From an uncultured Pelagibacteraceae bacterium (GTDB lineage Bacteria; Pseudomonadota; Alphaproteobacteria; Pelagibacterales; Pelagibacteraceae): a stretch of 64,000 nt of DNA. The DNA lies in the NCBI GenBank assembly GCA_902540275.1, contig CACBMB010000007.1, positions 1 to 64,000 of the forward strand, read 5' to 3'. The notes under the pieces are model-generated. The model did not search any database and had not been told where the DNA came from. It was given only the letters and a program-made list of their open reading frames with translations. A program made the translations under genes and the position numbers. Shown here one piece after another: positions 44,263-62,123 of the stretch (the stretch's first letter is position 1; the number at the start of each line of letters is the position of its first letter).

Positions 44263-44718
44263 ATGTTTTTATCGACGTACCAAAACAAATTAGACAAAAA
44301 GGGAAGGGTGTCAGTGCCTGCAAGTTTTAGATCTTATTTATCTAACTTGGGTTATAATGGAGTAATTTGTTATCCATCATTTAATAATCAATCTATAGAG
44401 GCGTGGCCACAAGATCGAATAGAAAAAATTTCTAATGCGATAGAATCTTTAAATCCTTTTGAAGAAAAAAGAGATTTTTTTGCAACATCAGTTTTGTCAG
44501 AAAGTATTAATTTACAATTTGATGGTGAAGGAAGAATTTCATTAACATCGAAATTATTAAAGCATGCAAAAATAAGAAGTAGCATGATTTTTGTTGGTCA
44601 AGGAAAAACATTTCAAATATGGGAACCAACAATTTTTGAAAAATTTAGGACAAATGCCAGAAAAAAAGCAAATTTAAATCGAGCGAGTCTTAAATGGGAG
44701 CATCAACTTAATAAATAA
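44263..44718 (+). CDS. mraZ: Transcriptional regulator MraZ
   Basis: Regulator of the division and cell wall cluster, with an AbrB-like double-repeat fold forming rings. Each half has the DxxxR pattern: [14 protein letters not shown] (about residues 11-24) and [17 protein letters not shown] (about 86-102). [15 protein letters not shown] is the classic start. 151 residues, normal. AAGGAA at 44247-44252 is a likely ribosome binding site. It is first in the cluster, behind its own three-box operator, and 14 nt before ftsZ. Confidence 0.96.
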
Positions 44719-44732
44719 CGGGGGATAGAAAA

Positions 44733-46184
44733 ATGACAATTAACTTTAAAGTACCAGAAATAAAAGAATTAAAACCTAGAATATTAGTCCTAGGAGTTGG
44801 GGGAGCTGGAGGTAACGCAATAAATGAAATGATCGATGCGGGTGTAGAAGGCGTTGAATTTGTTGCAGTAAACACTGATGCTCAAGATTTAAAAACAAGT
44901 AAATCCAAAACAAGGATTCAACTTGGTTTAAATTTAACTAAAGGGTTAGGTGCTGGAGCAAAACATGAGATAGGCCTAGCTGCAGCTAATGAGTCTTTAA
45001 ATGATATTGTTGATATTCTAAAAGGTGCAAATATGGTTTTTATTACAGCTGGAATGGGTGGAGGAACTGGCACAGGTGCTGCGCATGTAATTGCAAGAGC
45101 TGCAAAAGAATTAAATATTCTGACAGTAGGTGTAGTAACTCTTCCATTTTTATATGAAGCTCCATCAAGAATGAGAAGAGCGCATGAAGGCCTTGAGGAA
45201 TTAAGAAAACATGTAGATACTATTATAGTAATTCCTAATCAAAATTTATTCAAAATTGCAAATGAACAAACCACTTACAAAGAGTCTTTTCAATTATCAA
45301 ACAGCATCTTAAGACATGGAGTTCAGAGTGTAACAGATTTGATGGTAAAAGATGGTCTTGTTAATTTAGATTTTGCTGATGTTGAAACTGTTATGAGCTC
45401 TATGGGAAAAGCAATGATGGGAACAGGAGAAGCAGAAGGAGAAGGTAGAGCAGCCAAAGCTACAGAATTAGCTTTAAACAATCCACTTATTGATGATTAT
45501 TCTTTAAAAGGTGCAAAAGGTTTATTGATAAATATTACTGGTGGTGAAGACTTAAAACTTTTCGAGGTAGATGAAATCGTCAATAAAATAAGATCCGAAG
45601 TGGATGTAGAAGCTGAAATTATAAATGGATCAATTATTGATCCATCTTTAGATGGTAAAATTCGTGTTTCGATAGTTGCTACTGCTTTGGATGGTCAACA
45701 GCCAGAAAGTAAATCAGTAATTAATATGGTACATAGAATCCAAAATCGTAATCCTGGATATTCTGATTTTACTACAAGCAATGGAACTCCTACATTTAAT
45801 TTTACTAATGCAAGCACAAATCCAATTTCACATGGTGCTAATGCTTTAAAACTTGATAATGAAGTGATGAGTGAGGATATTAACAACGATTCTGTTGATG
45901 AAATAAATAATCAATATCATGAAGAATTGTTAAAGAACCAAGAAGTTGAAAATACATTAGATGAAAATGAAATGTCATTTTCTCATGATATTGAGTCATC
46001 TTTGGAAAATAAAAATGAGCCATCAAATGATTTAAAAGAATTTGGTGTTGATACTAGAGAACCAGATTTATTTAATTCTGATGATCCTAATCCAAGCTCA
46101 GATAATCTGCTCGAGACCTCAGAAGAAGAAAACGAGGAAGATGATCTCGAAATACCTGCATTTTTAAGAAGACAAAAGAATTAA
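44733..46184 (+). CDS. ftsZ: Cell division GTPase FtsZ
   Basis: Tubulin homologue forming the Z ring at mid-cell. GTP site [16 protein letters not shown]-terminal [14 protein letters not shown]7 catalytic loop [12 protein letters not shown]. The core ends about residue 320. A disordered acidic linker of some 150 residues then leads to the C-terminal peptide [10 protein letters not shown], the part that normally binds FtsA. 483 residues, slightly long because of the linker. A strong GGGGGA Shine-Dalgarno precedes the ATG. Its position between mraZ and rsmH is unusual, as ftsZ normally follows ftsA at the far end of the cluster. Confidence 0.98.
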
Positions 46185-49165: not shown

Positions 49166-52027
49166 ATGTTTCTCAAAGATTACTTTCCTGGAATAGAAAA
49201 AAAATTTCAAAAATATTTTTTTTCTTATATCTCTTTTGATAGTTCAAAAATAAAAAAGAATTTTATTTTTTTTGCAATTAAAGGCAATAATCATGATGGT
49301 CATGATTTTATAAATCATGCCATAAAAAAAGGAGCAAAAATAATTATCCATGAAAAAAAATTTACAGGGTTAAAGAATGAAATTTTATTTATATATACTA
49401 AAAATATTAGAAAGTTATTGGCTGAGATTGCTTTTAGAATAAATTTTGATAAACCAAATAATTTAGTATCTGTTACAGGCACTAATGGCAAATCCTCTAT
49501 TGCTGATTTCTATTTTCAAATACTTCAATTAAATAAAAAAAAAGTTGCTTCTATAGGGACATTAGGCATCAGAACTAATAAATCATTTAAAAGTTTATCA
49601 AATACAACAATAGATCCAATTAAATTAAGTGAAATATTAAAAAATTTAAAAAAACAAAAAATAGAGAATGTTATTATGGAAGCATCTAGTCATGGATTAA
49701 AACAACATAGATTAGATGGATTATTGTTTGATATAGGTATTTTTACGAATCTTTCTCATGATCACTTGGATTATCATAAAAACTTTAAAGAATATTTGAA
49801 TGCAAAAATGTATCTATTTAGAAAGTTATTAAAAAAAAATGGAAATATTGTTACTGATTATTCCATTCCTGAATTTAAAAAAATTAAAAAAATTTCTAAA
49901 ATCAAAAAATTAAAACTTAATTTAATTTTAAGTGATAAAAAAGATTTAGGGATAAAAGTTGTTTCACATATATTCGATGGGGAAAAACAAATAGTTATTT
50001 TAAATTATAAAAAAAAAATTTTAGAATTTAAAGTCAATTTAATTGGAAAGATTCAGATTAAAAATGTATTAATGGCTATATTAGCCGCCGAAAAAAGTGG
50101 TATTAAAATTTCTAACATTATCAAAAATCTAAATTATTTAAAACCTATCAACGGTAGATTAGAAAAGATTGGTCAAATCAAAAATAACTCGAAAGTGATT
50201 TTAGATTATGCTCACACCCCTGAAGCTTTAAAAACTGTTTTAGAAAATTTGAAAGAACAATTTCCAAATAATAAGATTTCAATAGTATTTGGCTGTGGCG
50301 GAGATCGAGATATTAAAAAGAGATCTAAAATGGGAAAAATTGCAAACATTTATTGTAATCAAATTTATATAACAGATGATAATCCAAGAAATGAAAATCC
50401 AAACTTAATTAGAAAAGAAATTAAAAAAGAAATAAAAAAAAAAGATTTATTTGAAATCGCTGATAGAAAAGAAGCTATAAATAGAGCTATCTTTAATCTT
50501 AAAAGTTCTGAAATTTTATTAATAGCTGGAAAGGGTCACGAAACTACTCAAACTTATAAGAATAAAGTTAGATTTTTTTCTGATAGAGAAGTTATTAAAG
50601 TAGCAATAGAAAATAAAAATAAAGATTTATCAAATAATATTAAATTAAACATCATTAAAGAGATCTCAAAATCAAAGTTATCGTTAAAAAAAATTAATTT
50701 TAATAATGCAGTAATTAATTCAAGAGATGTGAATAGAAATGATATTTTTTTTACTATTAAAGGAAAAAAAAATGATGCTCACAGATATTTAAGCGAGGTA
50801 TTTAGAAGAAAAGCATCAATTGCGATTGTTGAAAAAATACTAAAGAAATCAAATTATACAAAACAAATAAAAGTAAAAGATACTTTGAATTTCTTAACTA
50901 GGTGTGCGACGACTTTGAGAGATTCTTTAGAAACTAAGTTTATAGCAATCACAGGAAGTTGTGGGAAAACATCACTTAAAGATATGTTGGGACTTGTTTT
51001 AAACAAACATTTTAAAACCACTTTTTCAAAAAAATCTTTTAATAATAAATATGGGGTTCCTTTAAGTTTATTTAATATAAATCAGAGAGATAAATTTGGT
51101 GTATTAGAAGTTGGAATGGATAAAAAAGGAGAAATAGATTTTTTGTCAAAAATTATTAAACCCGATGTGGGAATGATAACAAATATAAGCTTTGCCCATA
51201 TAAAAAATTTTAAGAATATTTCAGAAATCGCAGCTGCAAAGGGTGAAATCATTAATAATATTAATAAGCATGGGTCAATTATCCTTAATGCAGATGATAA
51301 ATTTTTTGATTTTCACAAAAAATTAGCAGCTAAAAAAAATATAAAAGTTTTTTCTTTTTCTTTTAATAAGAAAAATGCAACCGTTTATATAAAAAAAATC
51401 ATTAAACAAAAAAATATGTTTAAAATTATTTTTAGGATTAATGATTTAGAAAAATATTTTTATATAAGAAGAGATTTTAAAAGTTTTTTATATAATATTT
51501 TAGCTACACTTACGGTCATACAAATTTATTTTGATGTGACCAAATTAAATAAAAATATATTTTTGAATATTAAATCAACAGAAGGCAGAGGAGATATTTC
51601 AAAAGTAACACTGAATAAGAGAGAAATTTATCTTATAAATGAAAGCTATAATTCCAACCCGTTATCTTTGACCTCAGCTTTACAAAATTTTAATAAAATA
51701 AATGTAAATGATAAAAAAAAACATATCTTATTAGGAGATATGCTTGAATTAGGAAATCATTCGAAAAAATTACACATCTCTATCGCAAAAGAAATTAATA
51801 AAATTTCGGTAAATAAGGTTCATGTAATTGGTAGTGATATTAAAGAAACTTTTAAAAAAATTCATAAAATTAAAAAAGGATTAATTTTAAAAAATGATTC
51901 GGAATTAAATAAACTTATAGTAAACAATTTGAGGGATGGTGATTATTTAATGGTAAAAGGATCAAATTCAACGGGTTTATTTAATCATATAAGTAAATTA
52001 AAAAAGATAAATACTTATGCTTTATAA
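49166..52027 (+). CDS. MurE-MurF fusion: two muropeptide ligases in one chain
   Basis: A 953-residue single frame. Residues 1 to about 480 are MurE (adds meso-diaminopimelate to UDP-MurNAc-L-Ala-D-Glu): ATP loop VTGTNGKSS at 103-111, [10 protein letters not shown], and DDNPRNENP near 403, the DNPR motif marking diaminopimelate specificity. From about 487 to the end it is MurF (adds D-Ala-D-Ala): [18 protein letters not shown] loop ITGSCGKTS near 595-603, NEVGM-like [11 protein letters not shown], and [11 protein letters not shown]. No start signal or stop occurs at the junction. It overlaps mraY by 11 nt. Confidence 0.95.
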
Positions 52028-58876: not shown

Positions 58877-59791
58877 TTGAAAAAAAAAATTTTAATAATT
58901 TCCGGTGGTATTTCAAAAGAGAGATTAATTAGTTTGGATACAGGAAAACAAGTAGCAAAAGAACTAAAAAAAAATGGTTATCAAATAAAAATAAGTGAAC
59001 CAAATTTTAGTTTGCTGGATACCATTAAATTTTTTAAACCAAATATTATATTTAATGCTTTGCATGGACAGTTCGGGGAAGATGGTTATATTCAAACAAT
59101 TTTAGAAACTACAAATATTCCTTATACTCATTCAGGAGTTATTTCATCTGCAATTGCAATGGATAAAGAGTTATCAAAAAAAATTTTTACTAAAAATAAA
59201 ATACTAACGCCTAAATATTTTTTATATACATTTAATGAAACAAAATTCAAATTAATTAAAAAAATTGAGAAAAAATTAAAATTTCCTGTGGTGATCAAGC
59301 CTATTAATGAGGGATCTAGTGTAAATGTTTTTATTTGTACAAAATTAAATATTTTGAAAAATTTAAAATTTCTTAAAGAATATAAAAAAATTATAATTGA
59401 AGAATTTATTCCAGGTAGAGAAATTCAAGCTGCAATTATTGGTAAGCAGAAACTTGGAGCGATTGAATTAAAACCAAAAAGAAAATTTTATGATTATCAG
59501 GCTAAATATAATCCTAGGGCTAAAACAAAACATATTATTCCCGTAAATCTATCTAAAGAAAAATATAATACTTTAATGAATATAGCGCTTAAAACACACA
59601 AATTAATAGGATGTAAAGGTGTAACAAGATCAGATTTTAAATATTATAATAATAAATTTTATTTATTAGAAATTAATACTCAACCTGGAATGACTAAACT
59701 TTCTTTAGTTCCGGAGATAGCAGCTCATCGCGGTATTAGTTTTATAAAGTTGATTAAATTGATTTTAAACGATGCAAAGACAAGTAAGTAA
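58877..59791 (+). CDS. ddl: D-alanine-D-alanine ligase
   Basis: An ATP-grasp enzyme making the D-Ala-D-Ala dipeptide that the MurF half of murEF uses. IISGGISKERLISLDTG, NALHGQFGEDGYIQTILE, FPVVIKPINEGSSVNV and LEINTQPGMTKLSLVPE are the family landmarks. The start is TTG 58877, one base after the murB stop; no ATG precedes the conserved start. 304 residues. It overlaps ftsQ by 20 nt. Confidence 0.96.
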   Translation: MKKKILIISGGISKERLISLDTGKQVAKELKKNGYQIKISEPNFSLLDTIKFFKPNIIFNALHGQFGEDGYIQTILETTNIPYTHSGVISSAIAMDKELSKKIFTKNKILTPKYFLYTFNETKFKLIKKIEKKLKFPVVIKPINEGSSVNVFICTKLNILKNLKFLKEYKKIIIEEFIPGREIQAAIIGKQKLGAIELKPKRKFYDYQAKYNPRAKTKHIIPVNLSKEKYNTLMNIALKTHKLIGCKGVTRSDFKYYNNKFYLLEINTQPGMTKLSLVPEIAAHRGISFIKLIKLILNDAKTSK

Positions 59792-60443
59792 AAAAATATT
59801 TTTATATCTTTTCTTATTTATTTCTCTAACAACACTAAGTAATAAAAATTTGATTAATTTTCATTTACCTAACATAAATCAAATAGATATCTATGGCTTT
59901 GACCAAAGTGAAAATAATGAATTATATAAAAATTTAGAATTTTTAAAATCAGAAAATTTATTTTTTCTTAATAAAAAAAAAATTACTAAAATTTTAAATT
60001 CGAATAATTTAATAGAGAATTATCATATATCGAAAAAATTTCCATCCAAGTTAATTTTGAAAATAAATAAAACAAATTATCTTGCAATCACAAAGATAGG
60101 TGAAAAATTCTATTTCATTGGGTCAAATAAAAAATTAATTAAAACTCATAATGTAGATTTAAAACTTCCAGAAATTTTTGGTAATTTTGAAATTAAAGAA
60201 TTTATTCGAATTAAAAAATTAATAGATGAGACAAAATTTGGTTATGATGATATAAAATTTTTATATTTTTTTCCATCTGGAAGGTGGGACATTCATACTA
60301 ATTCTGGCATTGTAATTAAATTGCCAAAAACAAAAGTAAAAGAGAAATTGAATTTAGCACATTCATTATTGATAGGAGATAGATTTGAAGATTTAACATT
60401 AATTGATATGCGTCAAAAAAATCAGATAGTAGTAAATGAATAA
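59772..60443 (+). CDS. ftsQ: Cell division protein FtsQ
   Basis: A bitopic divisome protein. One membrane helix near residues 8-24 (IFLYLFLFISLTTLSN), then a POTRA domain (INQIDIYGFDQSENNELYKNL to KKFPSKLILKIN) and the FtsQ/DivIB beta domain (YFIGSNKKLI, FFPSGRWDIHT). 223 residues, shorter than the usual 260-310 because cytoplasmic and C-terminal extensions are trimmed. It overlaps the FtsA-like gene by 8 nt. Confidence 0.92.
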   Translation: MQRQVSKKIFLYLFLFISLTTLSNKNLINFHLPNINQIDIYGFDQSENNELYKNLEFLKSENLFFLNKKKITKILNSNNLIENYHISKKFPSKLILKINKTNYLAITKIGEKFYFIGSNKKLIKTHNVDLKLPEIFGNFEIKEFIRIKKLIDETKFGYDDIKFLYFFPSGRWDIHTNSGIVIKLPKTKVKEKLNLAHSLLIGDRFEDLTLIDMRQKNQIVVNE

Positions 60444-61140
60444 TTTAGATTTTGAAACTTTTTTATTAATCAGACCAAACAAGTTTGTAATATCTATTTT
60501 TAAAAAATCTGACTTTAAAAAAATTTATGAAAAAGAGATATCTGTAGAAAATAGTTCAGGTAAATTAGAAATAGATTCTCTAAAAGAATTTATTGATAAT
60601 AATATAATTGAGATTGAAAAAATTTTAGGTGATTTTATAGAAAAAATTTATTTAATAATTGAAAGTGATAAATTTTTTTCCATTAATTCTTCAATTAAAA
60701 AAAATTATTCTGGTAATTTTGTTGATCAAATACATTTAAATTATTTGATAAATGATTTAAAGAATCAATGTAAAAAAACTTTTGGGGATAATAAAATAAT
60801 ACATATTATTATTAATAATTTTCAAATTGATAAAAAGGATTATTCGTATTTTCCAAAAGATTTAAAGTGTGAAAATTTCTCTTTAGATGTAAGCTTCATT
60901 TGTCTTTCAAATGATTTAATAAATTCTATAGAGGCCATCTTAAATAGTTATCAAATATCTGTAGATAAAATAGTCAGTTTCAATTATGTAAAAAATTACT
61001 TTAAAGAAAACCTAAATTTAGATTTGTGTAGTATGACTAAGCAAATTATTTCGGGTATCAACCCAAATGAAGCTTTTTTAGTTCCTAAAACTCCAAAAAA
61101 TAAAGGGTTTTTTGAAAAATTTTTTCAACTTTTTAGCTAA
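60436..61140 (+). CDS. Truncated FtsA-like protein: SHS2 (1C) domain plus amphipathic tail, no ATPase core
   Basis: 234 residues in the ftsA slot (ftsQ before, lpxC after); FtsA is normally about 420. Residues 8-65 resemble the first FtsA strands and helix, but the phosphate-binding DxGT is replaced by IRPNKF. Residues 68-187 follow the 1C/SHS2 pattern: IEKIYLIIESDKFFSIN, a helix near 98-112, IIHIIINNFQIDKKDY (like HVIPQEYxID), LDVSFICLSNDLINSI and QISVDKIVSFNY (like LKVDxLV). Nothing then corresponds to domains 2A and 2B. The end, GFFEKFFQLFS (224-234), is an amphipathic helix like FtsA's membrane-targeting tail. Inferred: a membrane-bound division protein unable to bind ATP. The alignment was made by eye. 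Confidence 0.65.
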   Translation: MNNLDFETFLLIRPNKFVISIFKKSDFKKIYEKEISVENSSGKLEIDSLKEFIDNNIIEIEKILGDFIEKIYLIIESDKFFSINSSIKKNYSGNFVDQIHLNYLINDLKNQCKKTFGDNKIIHIIINNFQIDKKDYSYFPKDLKCENFSLDVSFICLSNDLINSIEAILNSYQISVDKIVSFNYVKNYFKENLNLDLCSMTKQIISGINPNEAFLVPKTPKNKGFFEKFFQLFS

Positions 61141-61202: not shown

Positions 61203-62123
61203 ATGTCTTATTTAACCCAAAAAACTGTTTCATCTCTTACCAAATTTAGTGGTATTGGGTTACATACGGGTAAAAAATCTAGCATATGCATAAAACCAGC
61301 GGCACCCAATACAGGAATAATTTTTAAAAGAGTAGATTTAAATTTGAATAATATAATTTTTCCAAATTTTAATAATGTAACTAGCACTTCATTGAATACA
61401 ACAATATCTAATGAGTTTGGAGTTAAAGTCTCAACTATAGAACATTTGATGGGAGCTTTATTTGGTTTGGGTATAGATAATGCTTTAATAGAAATAGATA
61501 ATCAAGAAGTACCTATTCTAGATGGCTCCGCAATTCAATTTGTTCAAAAATTAGTTAGAACTGGTATCACTCCAAGTGAAGTACCAATTAAGATTATTAA
61601 AATAAAAAAAAGAGTAGAATATCTCAATGGCAAAAGGTCAATTATAATTGAACCATCTAAATTGAGTTTAAATATTGATTTTGAATTAAAATTTGACAAC
61701 CCAATTATTAACAACCAAAGAAATTTAATTAAAGTATATGAGGACGATTTAACAGACATTTATAATTCTAGAACTTTTTGCTTGTATGAAGATATTGAAA
61801 GAATTAAAAGTCAGGGATTAGCTCAAGGTGGAAGTTTGAACAATGCTATTGTTGTTAAAGATAAGGAAATTTTGAATAAAGAAGGATTAAGAAACAAAAA
61901 AGAATTTGTTAATCATAAAATTTTAGATTGTATTGGAGATTTATATACATGTGGTTATAGATTATTAGCTAATATCAAGTGTTCTCAAGGCGGTCATTTT
62001 TTAACAAATGAGTTACTAAAAAAAGTATTTGCAAATCAAGAGAATTATACAGTGTTAGAAATTAAAGAGAAAACTTTACCTCACACGCTCATTAATAAAA
62101 ATTTGCTTAAATCAATAGCATAA
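61203..62123 (+). CDS. lpxC: UDP-3-O-acyl-N-acetylglucosamine deacetylase
   Basis: The committed step of lipid A synthesis; a zinc hydrolase. QKTVSSLTKFSGIGLHTGKK at the start, STIEHLMGALFGLGIDNALIEID with the first zinc His, and NHKILDCIGDLYTCG with the HxxxD pair (second His and Asp). 306 residues, normal. In typical clusters lpxC follows ftsZ; here it follows the FtsA-like gene after 62 nt. Its presence shows the cell makes lipid A. Confidence 0.97.
   Translation: MSYLTQKTVSSLTKFSGIGLHTGKKSSICIKPAAPNTGIIFKRVDLNLNNIIFPNFNNVTSTSLNTTISNEFGVKVSTIEHLMGALFGLGIDNALIEIDNQEVPILDGSAIQFVQKLVRTGITPSEVPIKIIKIKKRVEYLNGKRSIIIEPSKLSLNIDFELKFDNPIINNQRNLIKVYEDDLTDIYNSRTFCLYEDIERIKSQGLAQGGSLNNAIVVKDKEILNKEGLRNKKEFVNHKILDCIGDLYTCGYRLLANIKCSQGGHFLTNELLKKVFANQENYTVLEIKEKTLPHTLINKNLLKSIA

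Follow-up and report, generated by a model that had tools for sequence, protein, structure and literature searches.

A half-size FtsA in SAR11 bacteria that lacks lobe II

What kind of protein is made from a gene that lies at the ftsA position of a dcw cluster and encodes only 234 residues? The question is raised by the window analyzed here, a stretch of 64,000 nucleotides from an uncultured Pelagibacteraceae bacterium, whose AT-rich genome of 1.2 Mb is assembled in 19 contigs and is 94% complete. The dcw cluster starts at position 44263 and reads mraZ-ftsZ-rsmH-ftsL-ftsI-murEF-mraY-murD-ftsW-murG-murC-murB-ddl-ftsQ-half-size ftsA-lpxC, most of these gene names having been assigned by reading the translations. 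The half-size gene starts with ATG, overlaps the stop codon of ftsQ by 8 nt and is separated from lpxC by a gap of 62 nt. The genes and the peptide discussed below are the following:

44733..46184, + strand: ftsZ, between mraZ and rsmH
46140..46181, + strand: C-terminal peptide of FtsZ, kept although the FtsA domain expected to bind it is gone
58877..59791, + strand: ddl, a member of the conserved ftsA neighbourhood
59772..60443, + strand: ftsQ, upstream neighbour, overlapping the half-size ftsA by 8 nt
60436..61140, + strand: half-size ftsA, 234 residues, recognized as an open reading frame, by profile match and by its relatives
61203..62123, + strand: lpxC, downstream neighbour of the half-size ftsA

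The order ddl-ftsQ-ftsA-lpxC is shared by the window and the fetched loci long enough to show it, whether their ftsA is short or long, and bears out the original prediction that the 234-residue product occupies the conserved ftsA position; it is a positional orthologue of FtsA. A gene for a GspL- or PilM-like protein would be expected in a secretion or pilus operon, whereas this one sits in the division cluster. Concerning the cluster itself, ftsZ lies at its head (44263–46184), between mraZ and rsmH instead of behind ftsA, and a single open reading frame of 953 residues (49166–52027) contains two Mur-ligase modules and is apparently a MurE-MurF fusion.

Homology with FtsA was established by profile comparison in both directions. 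The NCBIfam entry TIGR01174 (FtsA) aligns residues 45–181 of the window protein with positions 45–179 of its 371 (E 7.7e-9), at a score of 35 bits against the full-length cut-off of 176, and the Pfam entry SHS2_FTSA covers residues 82–155 (E 0.0013), under its gathering score. Among 29 related short proteins, TIGR01174 matches 26 and SHS2_FTSA 8 at E 0.01. A profile built from 29 short forms ranks FtsA crystal sequences first, three of them with E under 0.01, its residues 46–189 being aligned with residues 53–194 of Escherichia coli FtsA (7q6d) at E 3.1e-4. The proposed similarity to FtsA is thus significant with TIGR01174, for the window protein and for 26 of the 29 short forms, and with the profile made from the short forms themselves. 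The same score far under the curated cut-off implies that half-size ftsA genes may go unnamed.

An AlphaFold2 model of the window protein, calculated from 74 sequences, has a pLDDT of 89.6 and a pTM of 0.83. Foldseek, run with this model, returned FtsA chains in all of its top 19 rows (one of them, 3wt0, bearing only the title 'cell division protein'), the best with an E-value of 1.5e-12, followed by PilM and GspL/EpsL, so that the suggested kinship with FtsA structures holds. VIA-align superposes residues 5–208 of the model on residues 8–389 of FtsA 7q6i_D (Z 12.9, 200 residues, 3.0 Å), which means that nearly all residues of the body are placed and that lobe II is skipped; with Staphylococcus aureus FtsA (3wqt_C) it gives a Z of 14.7 at 4.2 Å. 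A model of another short form, with 37% identity to the window protein, shows the same fold (pLDDT 87.4) and yields a Z of 14.0 over 202 residues at 2.9 Å against 7q6i_D, its top row being 3wt0_A with a Z of 17.1. Since both short-form models lie on FtsA chains, what is present is half of an actin fold rather than an SHS2 domain by itself. The original prediction was therefore right on the retention of the SHS2 domain and of the C-terminal helix, and wrong in taking the SHS2 domain as all that remains of the body: the first half of domain IA (β1–β3, α1, β4) survives too, as does the last IA helix. The window protein consists of FtsA lobe I (IA and IC, the latter inserted in IA according to profiles, model and structure comparison), the last IA helix, a conserved linker and a C-terminal amphipathic helix, laid out as follows:

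60448..60666, + strand: residues 5–77, first half of domain IA (β1-β2-β3-α1-β4), phosphate-1 motif lost (from model and alignment)
60667..60915, + strand: residues 78–160, domain IC (SHS2), limits approximate, Pfam match 82–155 (from profiles and model)
60916..61005, + strand: residues 161–190, end of a helix, strand and helix running from IC back to IA (from alignment and model)
61006..61050, + strand: residues 191–205, site of the lobe II gap (about 130 residues, IIA and IIB), then the last IA helix, 197–205 (from alignment and models)
61051..61104, + strand: residues 206–223, linker with conserved G207, N209, N211, E212 and K218 (from alignment conservation)
61105..61137, + strand: residues 224–234, GFFEKFFQLFS, predicted amphipathic membrane-targeting helix, the most conserved part (from moment and conservation)

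Alignment of short with long forms of the genus reveals a clean loss. One internal block of about 130 residues is absent; it begins ahead of the phosphate-2 strand (FIDIGF... in the long forms) and ends ahead of the last IA helix (...ICxSG..NKQEV), and the sequence flanking it survives on either side, with the linker and the GFFEKFFxxF tail. It is an in-frame deletion that has similar boundaries in the short forms and leaves the C-terminus in place. The missing block is lobe II, that is domains IIA and IIB with the ATP site, the filament interface and the site of the FtsZ tail (the domain naming follows PMC7613929 and general usage). What remains has lost the nucleotide motifs too. At the place of the phosphate-1 motif DxG the window protein reads LLIRPNK, and DxG is found in none of 50 short rows, as against 11/11 mid-length and 35/36 longer forms of the genus; the phosphate-2 and adenosine columns are empty in all 50 short rows, in which genome G393 is counted twice and from which L082, L086 and L088 (under 200 residues) were left out. 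The short forms are thus devoid of all three parts of the actin-like ATP site and, in alignment and model alike, of domains IIA and IIB, as had been predicted. Taking profiles, gene order, the alignments of long with short forms within the genus and the two structure models together, the view of this protein as a minimal FtsA with the 1C (SHS2) domain and the membrane helix kept, and the ATPase and domains 2A/2B lost, is upheld.

Beyond the genus, a single alignment shows DxG at phosphate-1 in 0/20 rows of a second family of the order and in 9/20 rows of other genera of the same family; the corresponding figures are 1/20 and 10/20 for the phosphate-2 motif, and 20/20 and 9/20 for the adenosine GxG. 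The second-family proteins (L015–L017, L019–L035) are full-length FtsAs in which IDIRADK or a similar stretch replaces the phosphate-1 DxG. Judging by these motifs, they are probably ATP-independent, and the use of ATP may have been lost earlier than the lobe.

Could a second FtsA supply what the short one lacks? No full-length ftsA, which would have contradicted the original prediction, was found with TIGR01174 in the window's own genome (94% complete) or in 11 other short-form genomes, four of the twelve being single contigs (G003, G005, G020 and G026). The only frames matched in these twelve genomes are MreB-like ones of 345–359 residues and DnaK-like ones of 644–655, together with the short gene itself in eight of them; in the window's own genome, the match of the smaller class reads as MreB by sequence and that of the larger class was taken for DnaK from its size and match range, and both were rejected as second FtsAs. 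In genomes with a long FtsA (G011, G015, G001 and G009) the same profile finds it at once, as a frame of 369 residues in G011. A separate gene for lobe II, as in a split FtsA, was not found in the twelve genomes with TIGR01174 either; the short gene itself went unseen at E 0.1 in four of the twelve, so that a very divergent lone lobe II could escape this search.

The short form is widespread and constant in length. At E 0.01, 195 of 300 genomes of the genus match the window protein (38 of the 45 good genomes), the 105 without a match being counted as neither short nor long. Frame lengths, taken for 150 of the matches listed, are 220–246 residues in 108 cases, 319–406 in 23 and under 220 in 19 (nine of which start within about 40 bases of the contig start, and two of which are broken), with none at 247–300. 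Among the best 80 of 188 confirmed relatives in named genome contigs, 79 frames are of 230–241 residues and one is of 161; this set favours short forms, since it was sought with the tail pattern and restricted to the 80 relatives closest to the window protein. At the same locus, other species of the genus have an FtsA of 363–406 residues. Across the order TIGR01174 finds matches in 294 of 297 genomes, MreB and DnaK being matched too; among the matches listed, other genera and the second family have FtsA frames of about 378–420 residues (a single one, at the end of a contig, has 320), and where their loci were fetched ftsA is in the same place. A class-wide search matched 24 of 387 genomes, with short frames (233–242 residues) in three, all of this genus, and frames of 342–452 residues in the 21 others; since most of the class, in which a normal FtsA is expected, escapes the profile, the absence of half-size forms elsewhere is weakly tested. 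In viral contigs no relative was confirmed by tblastn at E 1e-3, and no published account of a shortened FtsA in SAR11 was found in the open-access literature. An apparent frameshift or stop near residue 60–70 was seen in the short ftsA of L082 (G026, a frameshift), L086 (G399, a stop) and L223. The ratio dN/dS is 0.12–0.28 in 10 short pairs and 0.12–0.25 in 6 long pairs, and in the same 16 pairs 0.12–0.32 for FtsQ and 0.05–0.09 for LpxC. The half-size ftsA is under ordinary purifying selection and, with its constant length and its presence in many species of the genus, is a fixed form that is not confined to one strain.

Concerning its origin, the short form looks like the product of one deletion of lobe II from a normal FtsA. 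When the tree is built from lobe I and restricted to the genus, 49 short forms are separated from 47 long ones by a single branch (support 97.7), which is also found with the N-terminal half of FtsA (97.6) and, less firmly, with the part after 1C (87); for 1C alone a single short clade is not rejected (p 0.73). The neighbouring genes tell a different story and would favour several independent losses of lobe II within the genus: the trees of Ddl+LpxC (115 rows, and again with 92), FtsQ (91), LpxC (99) and Ddl (79) each need five changes between short and long, and in AU tests Ddl (p 0.001) and Ddl+LpxC (p 0.035) reject a single short clade, whereas FtsQ (p 0.19) and LpxC (p 0.51) do not. With other genera as the root, the FtsA tree implies two changes, because the root then falls among the fast short forms; at face value long forms would have arisen from short ones, which we rejected as a long-branch effect. 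This result and the verdict of Ddl count against a single deletion. Repeated loss nevertheless appears doubtful in view of the one branch in the FtsA trees and the similar deletion boundaries, and ftsA alleles were probably exchanged later between lineages by recombination.

The two ends of the division question, membrane and FtsZ, were then considered. The C-terminal GFFEKFFQLFS has an Eisenberg moment of 0.64 over its last ten residues, a median of only 4% of the shuffles of the last 11 residues of each of 50 short forms reach an equal moment, and these 11 residues show a mean column identity of 0.83 against 0.48–0.63 elsewhere in 74 sequences, so that the resemblance to the FtsA anchor noted at the outset is confirmed and membrane binding is predicted. 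The same 74 sequences are otherwise diverse (pairwise identity median 38%, minimum 25%), with E61, K62, H123, I174, G207 and E212 invariant. In the linker, part of which is modelled with low confidence, N209, N211 and K218 are conserved at 95% or more, and a similar linker (NKQEV) is present in the long forms of the genus. FtsZ still carries its IPAFLRRQ peptide, as reported originally for the window: EIPAFLRRQ[KT]N is found in 28/28 loci (15 with short, 5 with mid-length and 6 with long FtsA, and 2 from out-of-genus genomes), the sample being 30 genomes, two of them without an FtsZ match.

The known site of the FtsZ tail in FtsA is domain IIB (4a2a is, by its title, the FtsA:FtsZ-peptide complex); SepF and ZipA are other Z-ring anchors. 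In the window's own genome (94% complete) the best SepF match has an E-value of 0.225 and ZipA gives no match at E 1, and in 22 genomes MinC is never above its cut-off (weak matches in 11, best E 0.02). ZapA is present in all 22; not being known to have a membrane part, it was set aside as a new FtsZ tether. An FtsN-like SPOR protein was not found in these 22 genomes with long or short FtsA. SPOR matches occur in eight (not the window's own genome), five of them above the cut-off, and all eight are one frame of 253–284 residues, judged by eye to be an RlpA-like lipoprotein and rejected as FtsN; in 8/8 loci (L255–L262) this frame is flanked on its two sides, in a constant order, by an apparent lytic transglycosylase and an apparent D,D-carboxypeptidase.

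In textbooks FtsA is the actin of bacterial division, and its core is taken to be ATP-dependent polymerization together with the capture of the FtsZ tail in IIB. We infer that the half-size protein is unable to bind ATP, to hold the FtsZ tail in IIB or, having no IIA-IIB interface, to form actin-like protofilaments. Sections of PMC7613929 describe solved FtsA structures with the FtsN tail in the IA-IC cleft, and double filaments with lateral contacts through IC and longitudinal ones through IIA-IIB; in part of PMC11323482, binding of FtsN to 1C is proposed to favour double filaments primed to activate FtsWI. The reading that we consider rather probable is that deletion of lobe II has turned FtsA into a nucleotide-free, non-filamentous, membrane-bound docking adaptor of the divisome. 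The cleft fold, the IC domain and the anchor being kept and the rest lost, the IA-IC cleft and the IC surface would hold the cytoplasmic tails of downstream division proteins. The protein, perhaps dimerized through IC, would be in a state that resembles the depolymerized 'active' FtsA of E. coli. Lobe I or the linker would have gained a contact to FtsZ, or the link would be indirect, via another protein. Two results sit uneasily with the docking adaptor: FtsN, the best-studied partner of IC, has no counterpart among the SPOR proteins of the 22 genomes, and the unchanged FtsZ tail would fit an FtsA that still binds FtsZ somehow.

The latter point leads to a direct tether, in which the FtsZ tail would bind lobe I or the GxNxNEVxLxxK linker instead of IIB. 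With the FtsZ tail kept, SepF and ZipA not found in the window's own genome and MinC above its cut-off in none of 22, either such a new contact or an undiscovered anchor is called for, and the strong conservation of the linker, with G207 and E212 invariant, would suit the former. On the other hand, the known site for the tail is gone with IIB, the tail has other partners in other bacteria, so that its conservation does not single out FtsA, and an NKQEV-like linker already exists in the long forms and thus did not arise to replace IIB; a direct tether is in our judgement unlikely, though a serious contender. A relic on its way out, with FtsA dispensable, another anchor at work and the remaining half in a minor structural role, would agree with the fast evolution of the protein and with the erosion of ATP motifs in other parts of the order. 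It is hard to reconcile with the narrow length range of the best relatives, a dN/dS in the range of that of FtsQ, a nearly invariant membrane helix and a high-confidence fold in two divergent members, and we regard it as improbable. As for a broken, mis-assembled or frameshifted normal ftsA, breaks, real or apparent, occur in a small number of members (L082 and L086), but many separate isolates agree on an in-frame deletion with the C-terminus kept, and these conserved intact short forms refute that explanation, which retains a negligible chance.

Extending the docking adaptor to a large part of the SAR11 clade, we tentatively suggest, at somewhat less than even chances, that FtsA there binds neither FtsZ nor ATP and serves as a half-actin plate on which late division proteins dock, the FtsZ tail being held by an undiscovered membrane anchor. 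SAR11 are very abundant ocean bacteria, and if this holds, their Z-ring tether is still to be discovered. In many species a natural deletion has removed exactly the core of FtsA (ATP and FtsZ-tail sites) and spared the membrane helix and the IA-IC part. In sister species the same operon still encodes the complete protein, and the contrast amounts to a natural domain dissection. The need for FtsA filaments in division, and other possible FtsZ tethers, thereby become testable, and the finding challenges the usual textbook account of what ties the division ring to the membrane.

Comparison with known systems sets these proposals in context. SepF and ZipA would do the tethering job that the half-size FtsA leaves open, and neither was found in the window's own genome. 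The cytoplasmic domain of GspL/EpsL is a small actin-like adaptor scaffold which keeps more of the second lobe. It belongs to another machine, and among its structures (1yf5, 4pht) 4pht reaches a Z of 10.8 and 10.4 with the two half-size models, as against 11.8–17.1 for FtsA chains. PilM binds ATP and is not known to have a membrane helix; it differs from the half-size FtsA in keeping both lobes and in serving another machine. PilM of type IV pili (5eou, 2ych) is FtsA-like with an IC domain, and the tail of bitopic PilN lies in its IA-IC cleft, as described in sections of PMC7613929. With canonical FtsA (TIGR01174; 7q6d, 7q6i, 1e4f, 3wqt) the half-size protein shares the place in the operon, the IA and IC fold, the last IA helix and the C-terminal amphipathic helix, whereas it lacks IIA, IIB and the nucleotide motifs, counts 234 instead of about 400 residues and falls far under the family cut-off. 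The long FtsAs of the genus (363–406 residues, e.g. L066–L079) and of other genera are at the same locus and have a like linker and membrane helix, but lobe II is kept, with DxG at phosphate-1 in 46 of 47 long forms within the genus; of all long sequences, those of the genus are closest to the half-size FtsA.
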